A stretch of DNA of 64,000 nt from a virus, in the IMG/VR virus record IMGVR_UViG_3300036770_007547, positions 1 through 64,000 of that record. One strand, 5' to 3'. This document shows, one piece after another, positions 8,964-28,613 of the stretch. Each line of letters begins with the position of its first letter. Position 1 is the first letter of the stretch. The position numbers were made by a program, and so were the translations under genes. The notes beneath the pieces are model-generated. The model was not told where the DNA came from and did no database searches. It was given only the letters and a program-made list of their open reading frames with translations.

Positions 8964-10209
8964 ATTCAGGCAAGTAATCTAGTATGCGGTTGCCACGACG
9001 TGACTCCAACAGCTTGATGTAATGCACTAGATCTCGAACGCGATGCGATTCGTCTGGTGCCGATTCGAGATATTTTATATAGCTCTGGCAATCCTGATGG
9101 ATCTGGGAGCGCACCCAGTCCGGATGTCGTGTGTTCAAGATCTGTGGCTGGGTCGAGGTTGATTCCACCAGGGTCGACAAACGATCTTGGGCCATCCGTC
9201 GTAGATCCTGTGGCAGTACACTGATTCGCATCATGGCCGGTTCGTTGAGGAAATCACAGCTTTCCACGGCGATGCTGTTGTCCAAGGCGTAGCGATAAAC
9301 AGTGTCAAGGTGCAGTATGGAAAACAACGTGGGCGTGATGCGTATCTGCATGAGCCAGCCATGTGATTGGCTGACCAGGCGCCACCGTTCCAACAATGCT
9401 CGGACATCATTGATGTGGCTGGGCCAACGCAGATAGTCGTTGAGATCATGCAGGCACTCGATGCTGACCCCCACATTGACTTGATGGAATCTCTCGAGCT
9501 GGGTTATCAAGTCGTCGTCCCAGACCGTGAGATTGGTGGTGAAACCAATGGTGACTTTGTGGGAGAGATCCGAGTCTATCAGCGCCTGCAAGATGCGTTG
9601 GAAGGCCGGAGTTATCATGGTCTCGCCGCCAATGAAATGCAGATATGCCAGGTTGGGAGTCTGCGACAGCATGTCAACAAATTGAGACAGCAAGGTGTCA
9701 TCGTCACACCAGGCCGGTGGCGGCATGCTGTTTATGATGCCCAATTGCAAATGTTCGCGGGCCAGTCGAGAACTGCTGTGCGGTGTGCAGAATACACAGG
9801 CCGAATTGCAGTAGTTGCCTAGATCTATTTGCCAGTCCTGCGGCAACAATTCGGTGTCGCCGTGATGGTCCATGCTGTGCTTGAACTCGTGTCGCCAGGG
9901 CGAACTCACCACAGTTTTGTCAAAGGGATCACGTATCCCAGTTTTCAAGAGTTGTTTCTGCCGACCACTGGGCTTGCCGTGTGACTCCATGATCCGGCAA
10001 GGTTGGCAACCCGAGACTTCGTTGCCTTCCAGCAGATCCAAGCGCAACGGCGACAATTTTTTCTGGAACCAAGTCACTGGGCTAACATCTTGTATGCGAT
10101 ACTGGCCCACTCTCTGTGTTTTGTCGCACCAACGGCAGTATTCGAAACTGCCGTTGTTGTTGATCCTGGCATGAAACCAGGGACTGCTACAAAAAGTCTT
10201 GTCAAGCAT
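8932..10209 (-). CDS. Radical SAM protein with twitch (SPASM-like) architecture
   Basis: 425 residues. N-terminal Cys region ([26 protein letters not shown]) precedes the core CxxxCxxC in [17 protein letters not shown] and the FIGGETMI glycine motif. This matches the other radical SAM gene at 1911 and twitch-domain proteins I recall from marine myophages. Reaction unknown. It overlaps clpP by 8 bp upstream and the beta-rich gene at 8963 downstream. Confidence 0.85.
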
Positions 10210-10792
10210 CCCGATTCACAATGACCCGATCTGCCAGACCATAATCCACGCTCTGCTGGGCTGTCATGAAGTTGTCGCGTTCCATGTCGGACTTCAATTC
10301 ATCAAAACTCTTGCCAGTGTGACGGACATAGATCGTGGTCAGCACTTCTTTCCAACGCAACAGTTCTCTGGCTTGGATTTCCACGTCTGTGGCTTGCCCT
10401 GATGCGCCGCCAAGGGGTTGATGGATCATGTGGCGAGCATTGGGCAGGATCGATCGATGTCCTTTCTCACCGGCTGCAGCCAACAACGAACCCATGCTTG
10501 CGGCCTGTCCCATGACAATGGTATGCACCGGACAACGGATAAACTGCATGGTATCATAGATGCTCATACCTGCGGTGACGCTACCGCCTGGGCTGTTGAT
10601 GTAGAAATTGATGGAACGCGCCGGGTCCTCGCTCTCCAGGAACAGCATCTGTGCCACGATGAGACTGGCTGAATGGCTGGAGACTTCGGTGTCCAGCATG
10701 ATGATGCGATCTCGGAGGAGACGGCTGTAGATATCGTAACTTCGCTCGCCCTTGGATGTGTGTTCCAGGACGATGGGTACTAGATTGGGCAT
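10202..10792 (-). CDS. clpP: ATP-dependent Clp protease proteolytic subunit ClpP
   Basis: 196 residues, the normal ClpP length. The Ser-His-Asp triad is complete: Ser99 in GQAASMG, His124 in HMIHQPLGG, Asp173 in [22 protein letters not shown] provides the oxyanion-forming glycine loop. ClpP forms the heptameric peptidase chamber fed by ClpX or ClpA. It follows a second ClpP-type gene (18 bp apart), and a ClpX and a ClpS are encoded at 24-27 kb, so the phage can supply a nearly whole proteolytic system. Confidence 0.95.
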
Positions 10793-10810
10793 GTTGTTTC
10801 CCTTAAAAGA

Positions 10811-11371
10811 TCAACTGATGTGGTCGCAGATGTTGTATTTCAATGCTTCTTCGGCCGAAAGATACACATCCTGGGCCGGCAACAAAATTTGTCGGATAAC
10901 ATCGTCCTCGAGGCCGGTGCATTTTTTATAGAGACTGATCATGCGCAGTTGCGTGAGTTCGAATTCTTTCACTGTGGCAAACAGCTCATGGGCCTTGCCC
11001 GAATTGTGCCACGAAAATTGGTGGCTGAGGATCGAAGTGTTTGGTGTCAACACCCGGCGGCCTGGGGAACCTGAAATGAATATGCAAAGACCGGCCGATG
11101 CGATCGATCCCAGACCCACGGTCTTGATAGGGATGGTACTGCTGTTCATGACATCGATCAAGGCAAATGCGTCTGACAAATTACCGCCATCGCTGTTGAT
11201 CATCAACAGCAATTCTTTCTTTTTGCGTTTCCTGACATGATTTTCGTGCAGGATCCACTCGATTATGGGCTTGATGTTGTCTTCGTCCACGACCCCCATC
11301 AACACCATGATACCATGGTCTTGCAGGGCTTCGCCTGGACTTTCGTATTGTAGATCTTTGTCGGTAGTCAT
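10811..11371 (-). CDS. Divergent ClpP-type peptidase
   Basis: 186 residues from MTTDKDLQYES, with AAGGA before the ATG. The fold follows ClpP, and all three catalytic residues are present: Ser92 in GSIASAG, His117 in SILSHQFS, Asp168 in AQDVYLS. The N-terminal axial region and the handle helix differ strongly from the neighbouring ClpP. It may form hetero-oligomers with that ClpP, as paired ClpP rings do in some bacteria, or work alone; this is inference. Confidence 0.88.
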   Translation of the reverse strand: MTTDKDLQYESPGEALQDHGIMVLMGVVDEDNIKPIIEWILHENHVRKRKKKELLLMINSDGGNLSDAFALIDVMNSSTIPIKTVGLGSIASAGLCIFISGSPGRRVLTPNTSILSHQFSWHNSGKAHELFATVKEFELTQLRMISLYKKCTGLEDDVIRQILLPAQDVYLSAEEALKYNICDHIS

Positions 11372-11387: not shown

Positions 11388-11422
11388 ATAGCGGGCGTCA
11401 CCATTGGGCAACGGCCCGCTAT
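11388..11422 (-). terminator. Hairpin between lipoprotein gene and clpP-like gene
   Basis: ATAGCGGGC and GCCCGCTAT form a perfect 9 bp stem with a 17 nt loop, followed on the minus strand by TTTCTTTC. It probably attenuates transcription after the lipoprotein gene ending at 11435; the interrupted U-tract makes this moderate. Confidence 0.55.
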
Positions 11423-13820: not shown

Positions 13821-14012
13821 TCACCAGTGTCGTATGGTGTTGGCGATGATGAATCCGCATGTGACCACATGCACCACCACCCAAAAGGTCTTGAGCGCTA
13901 GAGCGACTCGAGCCTCTCGTAATGTGAGTATGGGCACCCGAGGTCGGTCTTGATCGTTGGTGCCCATGAGATGCCCGGTGGCCCGGGCCCAGATGCGTTC
14001 GAAGCTGTTCAA
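13821..14012 (-). CDS. Small membrane protein coupled to isocitrate lyase
   Basis: 63 residues with a C-terminal membrane helix ([18 protein letters not shown]) after a charged N-terminal half containing [13 protein letters not shown]. The TTG start overlaps the aceA stop as TTGA and has GAGGAG upstream. I recall similar small membrane proteins in marine T4-like phages. Function unknown. Confidence 0.65.
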
Positions 14013-15289
14013 TGGAACTGCTCCTCTTCGGTACTGCCCTTGAGAGCTTGTGTGCTGGCATTGGCTTCGATGGTGGTGGTCACGCGATCAAAATAACCGG
14101 TACCTACTTCCCTTTGATGCCGTACAGCTTCAAAACCACGACTCGCATCCGCGAACTCACGCTCTTGTAGCTCCACGAAAGCAGACATGCCGTTCCTAGC
14201 ATAACCATGAGCAAGATCAAACATGCCATGATTAAGAGCATGGAATCCAGCAAGTGTGATGAATTGAAAACGGTAACCCATTGCTCCAAGTTCACGTTGG
14301 AAACGACCAATTGTGTCTGCATCTAGGTTTTTCCTCCAGTTGAATGATGGTGAGCAGTTGTAGGCCAGCATCTTGTTGGGATAATGCCGGTGGATGCCTT
14401 CGGCGAACCTACGGGCAAAATCAAGATCTGGAGTTCCAGTCTCGCACCATATGAGATCGGCGTAGGGCGCATAGGCCAGGCCTCGGGCCAAGGCTTGATC
14501 AAAACCTTTGCGGGTGCGATAGAATCCTTCTACCGTCCTCTCGCCTGTAAGAAAATCTTGATCGCGTGGATCAATATCTGAGGTAACAAGATCAGCAGCC
14601 TCAGCGTCAGTTCTAGCAAGGAGAATGGTAGGCACACCCAAAACATCAGCCGCGAGTCTCGCAGCCGTGAGCTTATTGATGGCTTCTTGTGTTGGTACAA
14701 GGACTTTCCCTCCCATGTGTCCGCATTTCTTGACCGAGGCCAATTGGTCCTCGAAGTGTACTCCCGAAGCTCCGGCTCGGATCATGGCCTTCATGAGTTC
14801 AAAAGCATTGAGCACACCACCAAAGCCAGCTTCGGCGTCGGCCACGATGGGAGCGAAGAAATCGTGATCGTTTTTATCTTCCATCCATTGGATCTGATCC
14901 GCACGTTCGAATGTGTGATTGATGCGGCGCACCACTGCGGGCACTGAATCCGCTGGATACAGGCTTTGATCTGGATACATCTCCCCGGCCAAGTTGGCGT
15001 CCGCAGCCACTTGCCACCCACTCAGATAGATGGCTTGGAGCCCTGCTTTGACTTGTTGCAGGGCCTGCATGCCCGTCAATGCACCCAGAGTGTTGATGTA
15101 ATCGTTTTCATTGAGCAGTCGCCAGAGTTTCTTGGCACCATTCGTGGCTCGAGTATGCACTTCGGGTTCGGATCCGCGCAGTCGTATCACGTCTTCGGCG
15201 CTGTATTCTCGTCTCACGCCTTGCCATCTCGGATCGCTGGACCACTGCTGTTGTAATTCGTATATTTGTGCCTGTTTGGTGTGATGCAT
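14009..15289 (-). CDS. aceA: Isocitrate lyase
   Basis: 426 residues, full length for the bacterial enzyme. The catalytic loop KKCGH is intact with Cys189, and [18 protein letters not shown] reads like a genuine isocitrate lyase rather than methylisocitrate lyase. Other signature stretches include [12 protein letters not shown] and [12 protein letters not shown]. It splits isocitrate to glyoxylate and succinate, the first glyoxylate-shunt step. No malate synthase is visible here. A late box lies 24 nt upstream, with a ribosome binding site near GGGG. As a phage metabolic gene this is unusual. Confidence 0.97.
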
Positions 15290-15708: not shown

Positions 15709-15979
15709 TCAGGCCCACTGAATCGATGCCGGCCAACAGCATGTAGTTGGCCAGCATCCCAAAACTTTGCCGGGTCCAAGCGGCCCAGGCATAGATCGCA
15801 CAACCCAAAATAAAGAACGGATATATCAATATCAGCGGAGGGTTGGGCACGGTGGCCGCCATCCACAAACTGCAACCGATACTCAAGGCCCAGGCCAATG
15901 CTTCTAGCACGAATCTCAATGGATAACTGCGGAAGTCTTGTTTGATCCATGCAAACGTGGGTCGCAACAAATCTATCAC
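15689..15979 (-). CDS. Small multi-span membrane protein
   Basis: 96 residues from a GTG start overlapping the UV endonuclease stop (GTGA), with GGGAG upstream. Two clear membrane helices (LRFVLEALAWALSIGCSLW; LILIYPFFILGCAIYAWAAW) and a third weaker one with MLLAGIDSVGLTRM. Resembles small conserved membrane proteins I recall from T4-like cyanophages. The 3' end overlaps the convergent plus gene by 20 bp. Confidence 0.7.
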   Translation of the reverse strand: MIDLLRPTFAWIKQDFRSYPLRFVLEALAWALSIGCSLWMAATVPNPPLILIYPFFILGCAIYAWAAWTRQSFGMLANYMLLAGIDSVGLTRMIFS

Positions 15980-17001
15980 AACACATACTCCCGAGCAAAC
16001 GAATGGCTGGCTAGGTTCTTGCCTTTGCTTTCGCACATGATGTCAAACTCTGTGGAAAAAGTGGCTGCCCACTCATTGACTGCACGATTCCAGTAGAAAT
16101 CGCTGTGTGCTCGAAGTTTGCCTTTCTTGTAGCCCCGGGCCAACAGATCAGTCAAGTCCGGAGCAACATCTACATCGTGCCCGACCAGTATGTCCTCACG
16201 GCTGACACTGTAATGTATGACCGGGCGACGCAGACCACGCCAACTGTCACGAACTTTTTTGACACGGTCATCCTGGGCACTGATGTATTCCCCGGTCTTG
16301 ATCCAGTGGTGATGTATGTCTAACACCAGAGCGAGATGGTCTGCCAGTTCGAGGCTGGCGTCGAGTCCCCAGGACATTTCGTCGTTTTCGATGGTGATAC
16401 AATTTCGCGCCTCTGGTGAGAGACGCCCAAGTGTGTGGATGATACCGGCTGGACCTTTTCGACCCGAGATGTGGACGTTGATTTTAAAGTCCTGGAAGGT
16501 ACGTCCATAACCCATCCAGCGGGCCATATCTGCATGATATTCAAACTCCTCTATGCTTCTATTTACGATGTCTTCGCTTTCGCTGGCCAGAACACAGAAC
16601 TGTCCGGGATGGAAGCTGAGCCTTACACCCAAGCGACGAGCAGCTTCGCCGATGGGCGCAAATATACGCTCGCAATGGTCCTGGATCTCCCGGCGCTGCC
16701 ACCACTCGCGCCAGCTGGGCTCGGTGTAGCCCTGCAACATCTCTGAACCCAGGCGTACCATCCGCAGTTCCGGCTCCAGAGCGCCCACGGTCTCGACCAT
16801 GCGCAAGGCCGCAGCGGCATTGTGGTTCATGATGTCCCACTGGCGTTGTTCGGCTTCCTCGGGGTGCTCGCGCAGCCAGCGCATGGTGGTTGATCTACCA
16901 TTGAGTTCACGGTTGGAGGCATTCACTTTCATGCCCCCGCATTCCGAGGGATCAGTGAGCCATTTGCATGCGAAACCGATGCGAGAGTGTGTAGTAGTCA
17001 T
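15976..17001 (-). CDS. uvdE: UV damage endonuclease (UvdE/UvsE family)
   Basis: 341 residues with the TIM-barrel signature of UVDE: RIGFACKWL at the N-terminus, LSFHPGQFCVLAS, and later ENDEMSWG, DIHHHW and AHSDFYW metal-binding motifs. It nicks DNA 5' to UV photoproducts. Its promoter (TTGCAA, 17 bp, TACAAT) places the start site exactly on the ATG, so translation is probably leaderless. Confidence 0.93.
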   Translation of the reverse strand: MTTTHSRIGFACKWLTDPSECGGMKVNASNRELNGRSTTMRWLREHPEEAEQRQWDIMNHNAAAALRMVETVGALEPELRMVRLGSEMLQGYTEPSWREWWQRREIQDHCERIFAPIGEAARRLGVRLSFHPGQFCVLASESEDIVNRSIEEFEYHADMARWMGYGRTFQDFKINVHISGRKGPAGIIHTLGRLSPEARNCITIENDEMSWGLDASLELADHLALVLDIHHHWIKTGEYISAQDDRVKKVRDSWRGLRRPVIHYSVSREDILVGHDVDVAPDLTDLLARGYKKGKLRAHSDFYWNRAVNEWAATFSTEFDIMCESKGKNLASHSFAREYVL

Positions 17002-23369: not shown

Positions 23370-24161
23370 ATGCAATTTGCCTTTGATCTAATTTCAGACC
23401 TACATGTGGACAGCTGGCGCCAGAGCCTGGACTGGGAACACCAAGCCACGAGTCCTGTGTGCATTATAGCAGGAAATGTCACGGGAGATCAAGCCGAGCT
23501 ACACCGTACACTCACCGACATATCCAAATGCTACAAAGCCACTATCTACATCGACGGCGAAGGCGAGCACATCAACGATTGCAGCGACATCGGCCGCAAC
23601 TATCACGACATAGATCGGTTGTGCCAATCCATAAACAATCTCGTGTATCTACAGGACAACTGTGTGATCATGAACGGGGTGGCGGTGATCGGAACCAATG
23701 GTTGGTGGACCTGGGACTTTGATCCCGACATCGATGTCGATCAAGCTCAGGCCTGGTTTTGTCATACCACGCATCATCACACCAACGTCACTGAAGTGAT
23801 ATCCAATCTGGCCAACAGCGAGGCCAAGTATCTCTCCAGCTCGGTGTTGAAACTGCAAAGACATCCCGAGGTGCGCAAGATCGTGGTGGTCACGAATTGT
23901 GTGCCCTATCATTGCTTGATCGAACACGACCAAGACCTACGATCGAAATATGATGTGGGAGTGATCGGCAACAAATGGATGCGGCAGGTGATTGGCAACG
24001 ATCTCGAGAGCAAGATCAGTCATTGGTGCGTGGGACGATATCCTGGCATGTTTGACAAGGTCATCGATGGTGTGAGATTTGTCAGCAACCCCCGAGGACA
24101 TGCACAAGCATCGTGGAACCAAACAGTTTATTTTCCACGACGCTTTGAGATTGATATCTAG
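23370..24161 (+). CDS. Degenerate metallophosphoesterase-like protein
   Basis: 263 residues with the calcineurin-like layout but altered motifs. ISDLHVD (metal 1) is intact; the GD motif reads AGNVTGD; the expected GNHE position reads DGEGEH; the GHxPxH end reads TNCVPYH. Several metal ligands are replaced, so activity may be lost or changed. The short leader after TTAAATA suggests leaderless or near-leaderless translation. Confidence 0.75.
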   Translation: MQFAFDLISDLHVDSWRQSLDWEHQATSPVCIIAGNVTGDQAELHRTLTDISKCYKATIYIDGEGEHINDCSDIGRNYHDIDRLCQSINNLVYLQDNCVIMNGVAVIGTNGWWTWDFDPDIDVDQAQAWFCHTTHHHTNVTEVISNLANSEAKYLSSSVLKLQRHPEVRKIVVVTNCVPYHCLIEHDQDLRSKYDVGVIGNKWMRQVIGNDLESKISHWCVGRYPGMFDKVIDGVRFVSNPRGHAQASWNQTVYFPRRFEIDI

Positions 24162-24472
24162 ACTTCTTCGGGCTCGAGTTTGATTTGCAAGGGATGGCCT
24201 TGGTTCCGAGCAGCATGAGTGATCTCGATGCCTTTTTGTTCGGCCACTTCGTAGGGCAACACTGCCACCACTGCTGAACCAGACTGATGTATGTCATGCG
24301 TGATCTGGGTGGCTGTGTCCAAGGTATATTCGAAATGCTCGATAAGGCTTTCGATTACAAATTCTATCGTGGTCTGATTGTCATTCATGTAGATGACCTT
24401 GAACATCGACGGCTCTTTGACGCCAAGCACAGCACGGGTTTTGATTTTTGTATTCGCGTCCAATTGTGACAT
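24158..24472 (-). CDS. clpS: ClpS adaptor (N-end rule)
   Basis: 104 residues. The substrate-pocket residues are present: Asn30-Asp31 in YMNDNQT and His62 in DIHQSG, and the VVAVLPYEVAEQKGIE segment is typical ClpS. ClpS delivers N-degron proteins to ClpA in bacteria, yet the phage encodes ClpX, not ClpA, in this window. A late box overlaps the end of hsp20 39 nt upstream. Confidence 0.9.
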   Translation of the reverse strand: MSQLDANTKIKTRAVLGVKEPSMFKVIYMNDNQTTIEFVIESLIEHFEYTLDTATQITHDIHQSGSAVVAVLPYEVAEQKGIEITHAARNQGHPLQIKLEPEEV

Positions 24473-24486
24473 ATGGATTCCTCAGA

Positions 24487-24508
24487 AGTGGGCCCGAGTG
24501 GGCCCACT
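24487..24508 (-). other. GC-rich hairpin in clpS leader
   Basis: AGTGGGCCC and GGGCCCACT form a perfect 9 bp stem with a 4 nt loop between the clpS late box and its ATG. No U-tract follows, so it is more likely an mRNA-stabilising or regulatory hairpin than a terminator. Confidence 0.55.
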
Positions 24509-24510
24509 GT

Positions 24511-24517
24511 TATTTAA
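24511..24517 (-). promoter_or_regulatory. Late promoter box TTAAATA for clpS
   Basis: TTAAATA overlapping the hsp20 stop codon, 39 nt upstream of the clpS ATG. Confidence 0.45.
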
Positions 24518-24963
24518 GCCTTGTTGTTTTCGGATTGATACGCGATGGAGATCTTGCGTGGTTTCATCGCTTCGGGTACCACTCGTTCCAGCTTGATCCT
24601 CAAAATACCTTCCTGCATTTCCGCCGATTGCACTTCTACATAATCGGCAAGAGTGAACGTGCGGGTGAAGCTGCGACTGGAAATACCATGATGCAGATAC
24701 TCCACGTTTTCTTCCACACCAGCACCGTTGCCTTGGATGGTGAGGCGTCCTTCATGGAATTCTACCTCGATGTCGCCTTGACGGAATCCGGCTGCGGCCA
24801 CTCGGATCTCATAGCTGTCATCCCCGGTCTTGACGATGTCATAGGGAGGGTAGTTGTTGCCGGCAGCAGAATCGATCTGATTGGTGATGCGATCAAACAA
24901 TCGATCCACACCGATGGTGTTGCGATAAAACGGGGAAAGGTCAAACGCTGTGATTTTAGTCAT
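24514..24963 (-). CDS. hsp20: Small heat-shock protein Hsp20 family
   Basis: 149 residues with a complete alpha-crystallin domain: YDIVKTGDDSYEIRVAAAGF, GVEENVEYLHHGIS, RSFTRTFTLADYV, and the EGILRIKLER end. Opening TAFDLSPFYRNTIGVDRLFD is the IbpA-like N-terminus. It holds unfolded proteins. GGAG precedes the ATG, and the upstream TATAAATA box is a perfect T4 late consensus, implying strong late expression. Hsp20 genes are common in T4-like cyanophages. Confidence 0.95.
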   Translation of the reverse strand: MTKITAFDLSPFYRNTIGVDRLFDRITNQIDSAAGNNYPPYDIVKTGDDSYEIRVAAAGFRQGDIEVEFHEGRLTIQGNGAGVEENVEYLHHGISSRSFTRTFTLADYVEVQSAEMQEGILRIKLERVVPEAMKPRKISIAYQSENNKA

Positions 24964-25026
24964 GATGTCTTCTCCTTTGTTAAGCAAGTTGACTAATGTG
25001 TAGCCCGACTATCGGCACTACAATGT

Positions 25027-25505: not shown

Positions 25506-26702
25506 TTACAATGATGATGGGGTATTTACCAACTCGGTGTCGATATCTACACACTTTATTCCTCGATCGTGATAGTCGCGCAGATGATACATGTGCGGCA
25601 TCAACACTCGCTCGAGCTCGCTGTGCAAGGCACGAGCTCCGGTGCCCGAACCACGAGATCGATCCACCAAGGCTTCCAGCGCCGGCCTTGACAAGTTGAG
25701 ATCCACCCCATCTTGCTGGAAGATCCAACGATACTGATCCACTAGATTGTTGCGCACGTCAGTGAGTATGCGCATCATGTCTTCGCGATCCAAGAGATCG
25801 AGATTTATCACTGTGGGAAATCTTCCCACGAACTCGGGTATCATGCCAAACTTGACCAGGTCGTCGGGTGTCACTGCACTGAGAGACACCGACTTTTTCT
25901 CGGGCAAAGGATTCTGGAATCCCATGCTTGAGCCAATCAATCGACGTTGTATGATGCTTTCCAGCCCCACGAAGGCTCCACCGGCTATGAACAGTATGTT
26001 GGTGGTGTCGATCTCTAGATTCTCTCCGTTGGGATGTTTGCGTCCGGGCTGTGTGGGAACTCGGCATTCGGTGCCCTCTACCAGTTTCAGCAAGGCCTGT
26101 TGCACGCCTTCGCCACTCACGTCTCGGGTGATCGAAGAGCTTTCGCTTTTTCGAGCGATCTTGTCGATCTCGTCCACGAACACGATTCCTCGTTCGGCAC
26201 GTTCGATGTTGTAGTCAGCAGCCGCATACAATCTACTGATCAGACTTTCCACGTCATCGCCCACATATCCGGCTTCGGTGATGGAAGTGGCATCGGCGAT
26301 CACAAAAGGCACATCCAGATACCGAGCCACAGTGCGTGCCAACAGAGTTTTTCCCGAGCCCGTGGGACCCAGCATGAGTATGTTGGCTTTTTGTATTTCC
26401 GGCGATGACTTGTCGCGATTGATACGCTTGTAGTGATTGATCACGCTCACGGCCAACACTATCTTGGCACTGTCTTGACCGATCACATAGTCGTCCAAGA
26501 ACGTCTTGAGCTGTCTGGGATCATGGTTTCTTTGTTCAACCGAATCGTGTGCTTCGGAAGCTTCGGGGTCGGTCAGTAGTTCCTGGCACAATGACACACA
26601 TTCATTGCAGATGGCCGAATTTTCACTGACTATGAGTTTTTGTACTGCGTCCTTGTGCTTGCCGCAGAATGCACAAGAATCAAGTGCTTGCTGTTCTTTC
26701 AC
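25506..26702 (-). CDS. clpX: ATP-dependent unfoldase ClpX
   Basis: 398 residues. C4 zinc-binding domain (Cys10, 13, 32, 35), Walker A GPTGSGKT at 112-119, pore loop GYVG at 145-148, Walker B IVFVDEID around 173-180, RKH loop at 221-223, sensor region GSGTGARAL. The ClpP-docking tripeptide, normally IGF, reads MGF at 260-262. It unfolds tagged proteins into ClpP. The altered docking tripeptide may tune it to the phage ClpP. Confidence 0.96.
   Translation of the reverse strand: MKEQQALDSCAFCGKHKDAVQKLIVSENSAICNECVSLCQELLTDPEASEAHDSVEQRNHDPRQLKTFLDDYVIGQDSAKIVLAVSVINHYKRINRDKSSPEIQKANILMLGPTGSGKTLLARTVARYLDVPFVIADATSITEAGYVGDDVESLISRLYAAADYNIERAERGIVFVDEIDKIARKSESSSITRDVSGEGVQQALLKLVEGTECRVPTQPGRKHPNGENLEIDTTNILFIAGGAFVGLESIIQRRLIGSSMGFQNPLPEKKSVSLSAVTPDDLVKFGMIPEFVGRFPTVINLDLLDREDMMRILTDVRNNLVDQYRWIFQQDGVDLNLSRPALEALVDRSRGSGTGARALHSELERVLMPHMYHLRDYHDRGIKCVDIDTELVNTPSSL
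25523..25528 (-). promoter_or_regulatory. Late promoter box TAAATA for bS21
   Basis: GGTAAATACC on the minus strand 27 nt upstream of rpsU, within the 3' end of clpX. Confidence 0.45.
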
Positions 26703-28327
26703 TGATTCTCCTGATCAAGCCTTTTTTCTATCTGTTGACGTTCGGCATCGGTGAGCAATTCGGGGTCGTATTCACCGGTACTGATCTTGTTGATGAGATG
26801 TTCGATGTAGGCATTGTTGTAACTATAGCTGTCTGTTTGTGATTTGTCAACTTCGATCCATTTCGTACCGTTGAATTTGTAGAGCAAACTCGGCATCTGA
26901 TCGATGCGCACATACATGTCGCCCTTGACGGGGGTTTCGGGCCAAGCTGGACCAAATCCAACATCGCGACGTATGCGTGGATCGTCGAGATATTCCATCC
27001 AGCCTGGCTCGGGTATGCGACCCATGATCACCAGGCGTCGTTGCTCTTTGAGAGTTTTTCCGGGATTGTCGTTTTTCCAAAGATGTTGTGCTTGCTTGAT
27101 CACTGGATCTTCGCTGACCGGATCTTCTTCGGCGATGAAATCAGGCACTGGCGCCAACTCTTGTTGTAGCTGTGCCATGTGTTCGTCGCTCAACGATGCA
27201 GCCTCCGTGGACTCGGTGGGTTTGCTCCAATCGATGTCGGGATTCTGATAAAAGTATTTGCCATTTTCAGGCATCGCTGTGTGTGCTGGTTGTTTTGGCA
27301 CATAAGGTTCGGGTTCTTCGTCCGACACGTCATCCAGCACTTGATAGTCCACTAGACGTGGGGCCACATCTTCTCGAGATTGGTCTCGGGTATCTTGATC
27401 GACCACGGGTGTAGCGTCCAATTCATGAGATCCTTGGTCATCATGTACGGCATCCACATCCAAATCTTTGTCAACACTGGTATCATTAGCGGGTGCATCT
27501 GGAGTCTCCGGTTCGGTAACGATGGCTGCTTTTCTTTCCCGGTGCCATTTCAGGCTTTCGGTGGCGGCCAGCAACATCATGATGGCCAGTGGATCAAACA
27601 CTGCCACCAATAATACAATCATCCATCTCACTGCACGTTCCAGGAGATTCTCATCGGGATTGTCGCCGTAAAGCAAAGCGGCCACATAACGTATGGGACC
27701 GACTTCGGCCTCGATCTTTCTCAGATCTCGTGCCATGGGCGCTTTCTCTTCCTGGAGTTTTACTATGCGAGCCTGTGCGGCTTCGATGGTGCGAGTGAGA
27801 TTGTCTCGGTCTCGGGCCTGGCTGCGGCGCACAGCAAGAGCACGCTCAGCCGAACTTTGGGTATAGGTGCTTCCATCTCGACGAGTTATCTCTCGATCAT
27901 TGCCGGCCGATTGGATTCCGATCACTGCGTCATCCAATTGCTTGATCAGCGATCGTGCGTTTTCGATGGTGTCTCGCTCGTTTTTTATTTTCTCATCTAT
28001 CAGCGCGACCTGTGCGGCCACATCACCGGTGGGCACAGCTTGATCTAGGTGTGCTTTTGACAAAAATCCAAAAATTCCCATGCTGGTGATCAGCATGAGT
28101 GCTGCCACTGCGGGCACCAAATACAACTTCATGGCCAACTTGCACTGGCCCCAATGTTCGTGCAGCCAAACCGTGACCACCAGTTTGGCAGCTTCCAGCA
28201 CACCACCCATGATGATGATGGGCAACACCGAGGCCGAAAATATAGCCGTCAAGCCCACTATGCTGTAAAATGCGGCGATGACGCTCAAGGCCAGCGCCAC
28301 CAAGAACATGAGTGCAGTCAGGATCAT
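26699..28327 (-). CDS. Large membrane protein with coiled coil and acidic tail
   Basis: 542 residues. Membrane helices near 1-25, 28-50 and 68-92, a coiled coil about 105-215 (ARSLIKQLDDAVIGIQS, QARIVKLQEEKAPM), another helix pair about 232-260 (MIVLLVAVFDPLAIMMLL), then a long acidic region and a conserved end with MYVRIDQMPSLLYKFNG. I recall equivalents in marine T4-like phages. Role unknown. The ATG lies exactly 5 nt after a GATAAATA box, so the mRNA is predicted to be leaderless. Confidence 0.8.
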   Translation of the reverse strand: MILTALMFLVALALSVIAAFYSIVGLTAIFSASVLPIIIMGGVLEAAKLVVTVWLHEHWGQCKLAMKLYLVPAVAALMLITSMGIFGFLSKAHLDQAVPTGDVAAQVALIDEKIKNERDTIENARSLIKQLDDAVIGIQSAGNDREITRRDGSTYTQSSAERALAVRRSQARDRDNLTRTIEAAQARIVKLQEEKAPMARDLRKIEAEVGPIRYVAALLYGDNPDENLLERAVRWMIVLLVAVFDPLAIMMLLAATESLKWHRERKAAIVTEPETPDAPANDTSVDKDLDVDAVHDDQGSHELDATPVVDQDTRDQSREDVAPRLVDYQVLDDVSDEEPEPYVPKQPAHTAMPENGKYFYQNPDIDWSKPTESTEAASLSDEHMAQLQQELAPVPDFIAEEDPVSEDPVIKQAQHLWKNDNPGKTLKEQRRLVIMGRIPEPGWMEYLDDPRIRRDVGFGPAWPETPVKGDMYVRIDQMPSLLYKFNGTKWIEVDKSQTDSYSYNNAYIEHLINKISTGEYDPELLTDAERQQIEKRLDQENQ

Positions 28328-28331
28328 AAGA

Positions 28332-28613
28332 TTATTTATCGCTTCTTGGGTGGTTATCACTGCTTACAATAACCGCTAGCTTGGTGGCCACCCAAGTGGC
28401 CCAGCGCTCATCGGGCACGTCGAACCATACCGGTATCACCCCATGATTGTGAACGAGTTTGCGGCGCACTCGGGGCTGTGTGTGCCACTGGCTGCCGAAC
28501 CAATCCCGGCACTCGCGCATCACAGCATACCACTGTTCGATGGTATGTACCCACACATAGAATCGGTGCAGATCCGGGGTCGTTTTTTTAAGTGAGCTAG
28601 ATTCCATCGACAT
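28332..28613 (-). CDS. Conserved small phage protein, Trp-rich
   Basis: 93 residues from MSMESSSLKKTTPDLHRFYV. FYVWVHTIEQWYAVMRECRD and VWFDVPDERWATWVATKLAV. No ribosome binding site is clear; the leader upstream is the hairpin-dense region. Function unknown. Confidence 0.65.
   Translation of the reverse strand: MSMESSSLKKTTPDLHRFYVWVHTIEQWYAVMRECRDWFGSQWHTQPRVRRKLVHNHGVIPVWFDVPDERWATWVATKLAVIVSSDNHPRSDK
28333..28340 (-). promoter_or_regulatory. Late promoter box GATAAATA (leaderless candidate)
   Basis: GATAAATA, ATCTT, ATG (28327). It overlaps the 3' end of the gene at 28332. Same 5 nt gap as the boxes before 754 and 4156. Confidence 0.55.

Follow-up and report, generated by a model that had tools for sequence, protein, structure and literature searches.

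Gene organization at the clp loci

The window, which is the whole stretch of DNA that was analysed, comprises bases 1-64000 of the 222,775-base IMG/VR virus record IMGVR_UViG_3300036770_007547. Its minus strand encodes two ClpP-type peptidases, the unfoldase ClpX and the adaptor ClpS, all four at or very near the positions given in a first-pass annotation of this DNA and all identified by family searches. The two peptidase genes belong to a minus-strand run in which clpP2 (10811..11371; 186 amino acids; Pfam CLP_protease 1.6e-27, 97 bits), encoding a divergent, phage-type ClpP, is followed after a gap of 18 bases by clpP1 (10202..10792; 196 amino acids; Pfam CLP_protease 4.7e-79), encoding a canonical ClpP peptidase, and then by a radical-SAM gene that begins, with an ATG, 8 bases before clpP1 ends. 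The longest open reading frame of clpP2 starts at 11404, but the ATG at 11371, also chosen in the first-pass annotation, is preferred because most relatives begin there and an AAGGA lies just upstream. Apart from ClpP1 and ClpP2, the record contains no PF00574 protein.

Some 13 kb from this run, likewise on the minus strand, lies clpX (25506..26702; 398 amino acids, full length; NCBIfam ClpX equivalog, 520 bits), followed by two small open reading frames, the gene for the small heat shock protein Hsp20 (24514..24987) and clpS (24158..24472; 104 amino acids, also full length; family search 8e-24). Hsp20 holds this place between ClpX and ClpS across the lineage: the order clpX-hsp20-clpS on one strand is found in all 69 clpX loci for which both other genes fall inside the fetched flank. 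Between hsp20 and clpS, the minus strand carries a 9-bp hairpin (24487-24508), which keeps its position in 35 of 42 distinct relatives and shows compensatory base changes. It usually has TAAATA ahead of it and lacks a T run; a part in RNA processing or stability is possible. At the other end of clpX, also on the minus strand, is a gene (26699..28360) for a 553-amino-acid protein with no Pfam match; in the majority of relatives, this gene and clpX abut or overlap.

Distribution and inheritance

Relatives were collected by scanning viral contigs for ClpP2, which yielded 19 loci, and for ClpX, from which the best 80 of 256 matches were used. Several matches filed as phage were set aside, either for resembling bacterial chromosome, as with Acinetobacter phage MD-2021a, or for stemming from unannotated faecal or Listeria/Staphylococcus records; the Acinetobacter entries display the arrangements tig-clpP-clpX and clpS-clpA, i.e. 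bacterial chromosome. Among the best 80 of 256 ClpX matches, eleven relatives (G018-G028) are at least 200 kb long, and each of these eleven encodes ClpP1, ClpP2, ClpX, ClpS and ClpA, although in one (G027) a frame break or stop interrupts the ClpA gene.

ClpA is the usual partner of ClpS; no clpA lies in the window, where the first-pass annotation could have seen it. A search of the 222,775-base record did not find clpA. In most of the eleven large relatives this gene follows clpP1 at a distance of about 49-72 kb, G018-G020 being rearranged. The present record stops 10 kb downstream of clpP1, so that the missing clpA is uninformative. The Clp_N domain is present in both of the relatives' ClpA proteins that were scanned, and an IGF-type loop in most of those that were read.

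As judged from dN/dS medians of 0.07 for clpP1, 0.09 for clpP2, 0.10 for clpS and 0.03 for clpX (the last from few independent pairs), the four genes are maintained by purifying selection. Trees were built for ClpP and ClpX. The ClpX proteins of the lineage cluster together (SH-aLRT 100), away from the bacterial rows, and ClpP1 groups with other jumbo-phage ClpPs, its identity to the bacterial ClpPs found being about 60% and at most 64%. ClpP2-type proteins likewise cluster with support (96/98, 27 rows) away from bacterial ClpP; within this cluster, Sinorhizobium phage Phosso, Synechococcus phage BUCT-ZZ01 and the relative G016 sit on long branches. The prospect raised in the first-pass annotation, that a phylogeny might expose these genes as recent host fragments, is thus not borne out, and a recent acquisition of the phage clp genes from a host is ruled out by the ClpP and ClpX trees.

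Two types of ClpP

The first-pass annotation described both peptidases as retaining the full Ser-His-Asp triad while differing greatly outside it. Both observations hold: the triad is kept in every relative aligned, and the two proteins share 24% identity over 134 residues. Residues were aligned to E. coli ClpP and are given in E. coli numbering. In ClpP1 of the lineage, the triad S97/H122/D171 and the axial GERS are present in all 21 proteins, as are Y62 and L114 of the docking pocket, with F82 appearing as F or Y and L189 as I, L or V. In the ClpP1 of the window, the axial loop is intact, as is the greater part of the docking pocket, and there is no long propeptide. It is thus, in triad, pocket and axial loop, a regular member of the ClpP family (S14, PF00574).

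ClpP2 shares the fold and the triad of this family, the latter in 26 of 26 ClpP2-type proteins; its AlphaFold model has a pLDDT of 86 and superimposes on solved ClpPs with TM scores of 0.8-0.9 in Foldseek. What it lacks are the features of a ClpP on which an ATPase docks. All four pocket positions are replaced in each of the 26 proteins (Y62 by M or I, F82 by S, A or G, L114 by T, and L189 by S, A, R or K), and the axial loop (GERS) is absent from every one of them. As ClpP2 has neither a docking surface nor a gating axial loop, an unfoldase would probably not feed it through its own face. Other divergent phage proteins of the ClpP fold are also without the pocket; together with the identity of only about 24% to ClpP1, this makes the absence of a docking surface the trait of ClpP2, without establishing a mixed barrel. 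Within the literature and databases that were searched, this subfamily, apparently a phage-type branch in which the cutting site is kept and the motor-docking surface lost, looks new.

The complete genome of the cyanophage BUCT-ZZ01 encodes a ClpP2-type protein (9941-10507 of locus L006) that is annotated as hypothetical, and a search of that genome found no ClpP1, ClpX, ClpS or ClpA. ClpP2 need therefore not pair with a phage ClpP1. In another sequence, JADHSL010000081.1, filed as a Pirellulales MAG, a ClpP2-type and a ClpP1-type gene are 1.2 kb apart, and no clpX was found in the stretch examined; this looks like a mis-binned phage contig.

ClpX and ClpS

The ClpX of the window has the zinc finger, Walker A and B motifs, the GYVG and RKH pore loops and an xGF-type docking loop expected of this unfoldase, and its ATPase, pore and zinc motifs are nearly invariant over 80 phage homologues. 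The docking tripeptide is indeed MGF, as had been noted. The further proposal that MGF could make this ClpX prefer the phage ClpP finds no footing: the tripeptide varies within the lineage and is also found in bacterial ClpX. Counted from an alignment, MGF is present in 14 of the 80 phage homologues and in 5 of the 78 bacterial ones, so that it is not readable as a phage-specific key and was rejected as a mark of specificity. At another site, following EF(V/I), the residue after the GR motif is F in all 80 phage ClpX proteins and L, V, I or M in all 78 bacterial ones.

In ClpS, the residues binding the alpha-amino group of the N-degron (N34/D35/H66, E. coli numbering) and the ClpA-contact residues E79 and K84 are retained in 13 of 13 proteins. 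At the residue level, both the degron site and the ClpA contact are thus those of a ClpS adaptor. M62 is replaced by T in the window protein and in 12 of the 13, a change that may shift specificity.

Comparison with known systems

Searches by tblastn and of whole genomes for Clp sets in other phages demonstrate that the combination of an unfoldase, an adaptor and two peptidases is already known from other giant phages, and the earlier impression that no described phage carries it was mistaken. The closest parallel is Sinorhizobium phage Phosso (PV764938), which has the same two ClpP types (65% and 48% identical), ClpX, ClpS and ClpA, with Hsp20 near ClpS; unlike the present arrangement, its Clp genes are scattered over a 469-kb genome, and the sequences are only 41-65% identical. 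Literature searches on Phosso and on phage-encoded ClpP under that name turned up no paper. The uncultured huge phage LR756504 encodes three ClpP-fold proteins besides ClpX, ClpS and ClpA. For Agrobacterium phage Atu_ph07, ClpX, ClpA, ClpB, ClpS, a ClpP and further Clp-like proteins were described in 2018 (PMC6102473). Here too ClpX, ClpA, ClpS and ClpP occur together in one jumbo phage, but the present search found one PF00574 ClpP in it and no ClpP2 type. Similarly, Pseudomonas phage PA5oct and Salicola phage SCTP-2 have ClpP, ClpX, ClpS and ClpA, but one ClpP each. Six Clp open reading frames were reported in 2024 for AP-J-162 (PMC11242549), and phage ClpP, ClpS, ClpX and ClpA are discussed in a comparative review (PMC7824862).

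Outside phages, mycobacterial ClpP1P2 similarly combines two ClpP types that are both catalytic but whose docking pockets are unequal. Its hetero-assembly and the docking on one face by means of pocket differences have been demonstrated (PMC6889138), whereas for the phage proteins both would be predictions, and the phage ClpP2 differs further in having no axial loop. The ClpP-related head maturation proteases (NF045542, phrog_94) share with ClpP2 a ClpP fold without ClpX docking. ClpP2 nevertheless matches ClpP models better than NF045542, and the ClpPs are not assigned to this class of capsid proteases, given that the phage has a separate S77 prohead protease of the T4 type (PF03420), encoded at 137791-138216 of the record and found also in the relative G006, in Phosso and in BUCT-ZZ01.

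Role of the phage Clp set

Gene content, conservation, phylogeny and the retention or loss of motifs are read directly from the sequences, and from these we infer how the proteins assemble, dock and select substrates. The most probable reading is that of a vertically inherited phage Clp AAA+ set, with a docking-competent ClpP1 at its core and a non-docking ClpP2, carrying out selective proteolysis in infection. ClpX, ClpS, ClpP1 and ClpP2 of the window would be part of a complete set, to which the ClpA seen in relatives also belongs. ClpP1 most likely builds the usual barrel and takes its substrates from the phage ClpX and ClpA, with ClpS handing proteins that expose N-terminal degrons over to ClpA. 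ClpP2 could be the ring without docking in a barrel shared with ClpP1, or else a peptidase that works independently of an unfoldase. In infected cells, the set probably serves, alongside Hsp20, to degrade selected host proteins as well as phage proteins that are damaged or in surplus.

The two roles for ClpP2 seem about equally likely. It may build its own barrel and act as a peptidase without an unfoldase, a distant parallel to the head maturation proteases but with targets other than capsid proteins. Such a role agrees with the missing loop and pocket in 26 of 26 proteins and the existence of other pocket-less phage ClpP-fold proteins, and with BUCT-ZZ01, where a ClpP2 with a similar handle motif occurs in a complete phage without a phage ClpP1. 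It fits less well with the scores of ClpP2, which are higher for ClpP models than for the head-maturation model, with its co-occurrence with ClpP1 in all eleven large relatives (among the best 80 of 256 ClpX matches), and with the position of its gene, often close to and upstream of clpP1, also on a distant phage-like contig. Co-occurrence and frequent linkage instead favour a mixed two-ring barrel, a comparably plausible arrangement, already raised in the first-pass annotation as a mixed ring, in which ClpX or ClpA would dock on the ClpP1 face only and ClpP2 would add a second cleavage preference. As in mycobacterial ClpP1P2, both triads are intact and the docking residues are complementary, kept in ClpP1 and lost in ClpP2. 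Against such a barrel speak the solitary ClpP2 of BUCT-ZZ01, the distance of about 80 kb or more between clpP1 and clpP2 in G018-G020, and the handle (ring-ring) motif, which differs strongly between ClpP1 and ClpP2 and is largely kept in BUCT-ZZ01. A more elaborate proposal is rather doubtful: ClpP2 would represent a phage-specific class with catalysis kept and docking dropped, which together with ClpP1 makes a single-headed protease, ClpX and ClpA/ClpS competing for one face, and the phage thus having an N-degron and a ClpX-substrate pathway of its own.

Alternatively, phage ClpS, ClpX and ClpP1 might act chiefly by reprogramming the Clp machinery of the host, or by competing with it, instead of forming a separate one, as has been suggested for phage ClpS (PMC7824862). 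ClpP1, about 60% identical to bacterial ClpP, and ClpX keep surfaces that host partners could use, and ClpS keeps its ClpA contacts; this option is nonetheless unlikely, in that the relatives encode their own ClpA and a full set, and host partners are not required. Processing of capsid or other virion proteins by one or both ClpPs, a maturation role put forward in the first-pass annotation, is very improbable: head maturation proteases of the ClpP fold are common in phages, but this phage has the separate T4-type prohead protease already noted, and no structural-protein match was found among the clpP neighbours. The presence of the whole set in every large member examined of this jumbo-phage lineage, combined with purifying selection, points to targeted proteolysis as a normal element of its infection. 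Unfoldase-protease sets of phages are usually noted gene by gene. A catalytic ClpP2 without docking surface also offers a clean test of ClpP rings that have no unfoldase face.

Other genes in the window

The window also encodes a full-length isocitrate lyase (14009-15289; 784 bits against the NCBIfam model, KKCGH motif present), which is unusual in a phage and has no PHROG match, and a UV damage endonuclease UvdE (15976-17001).
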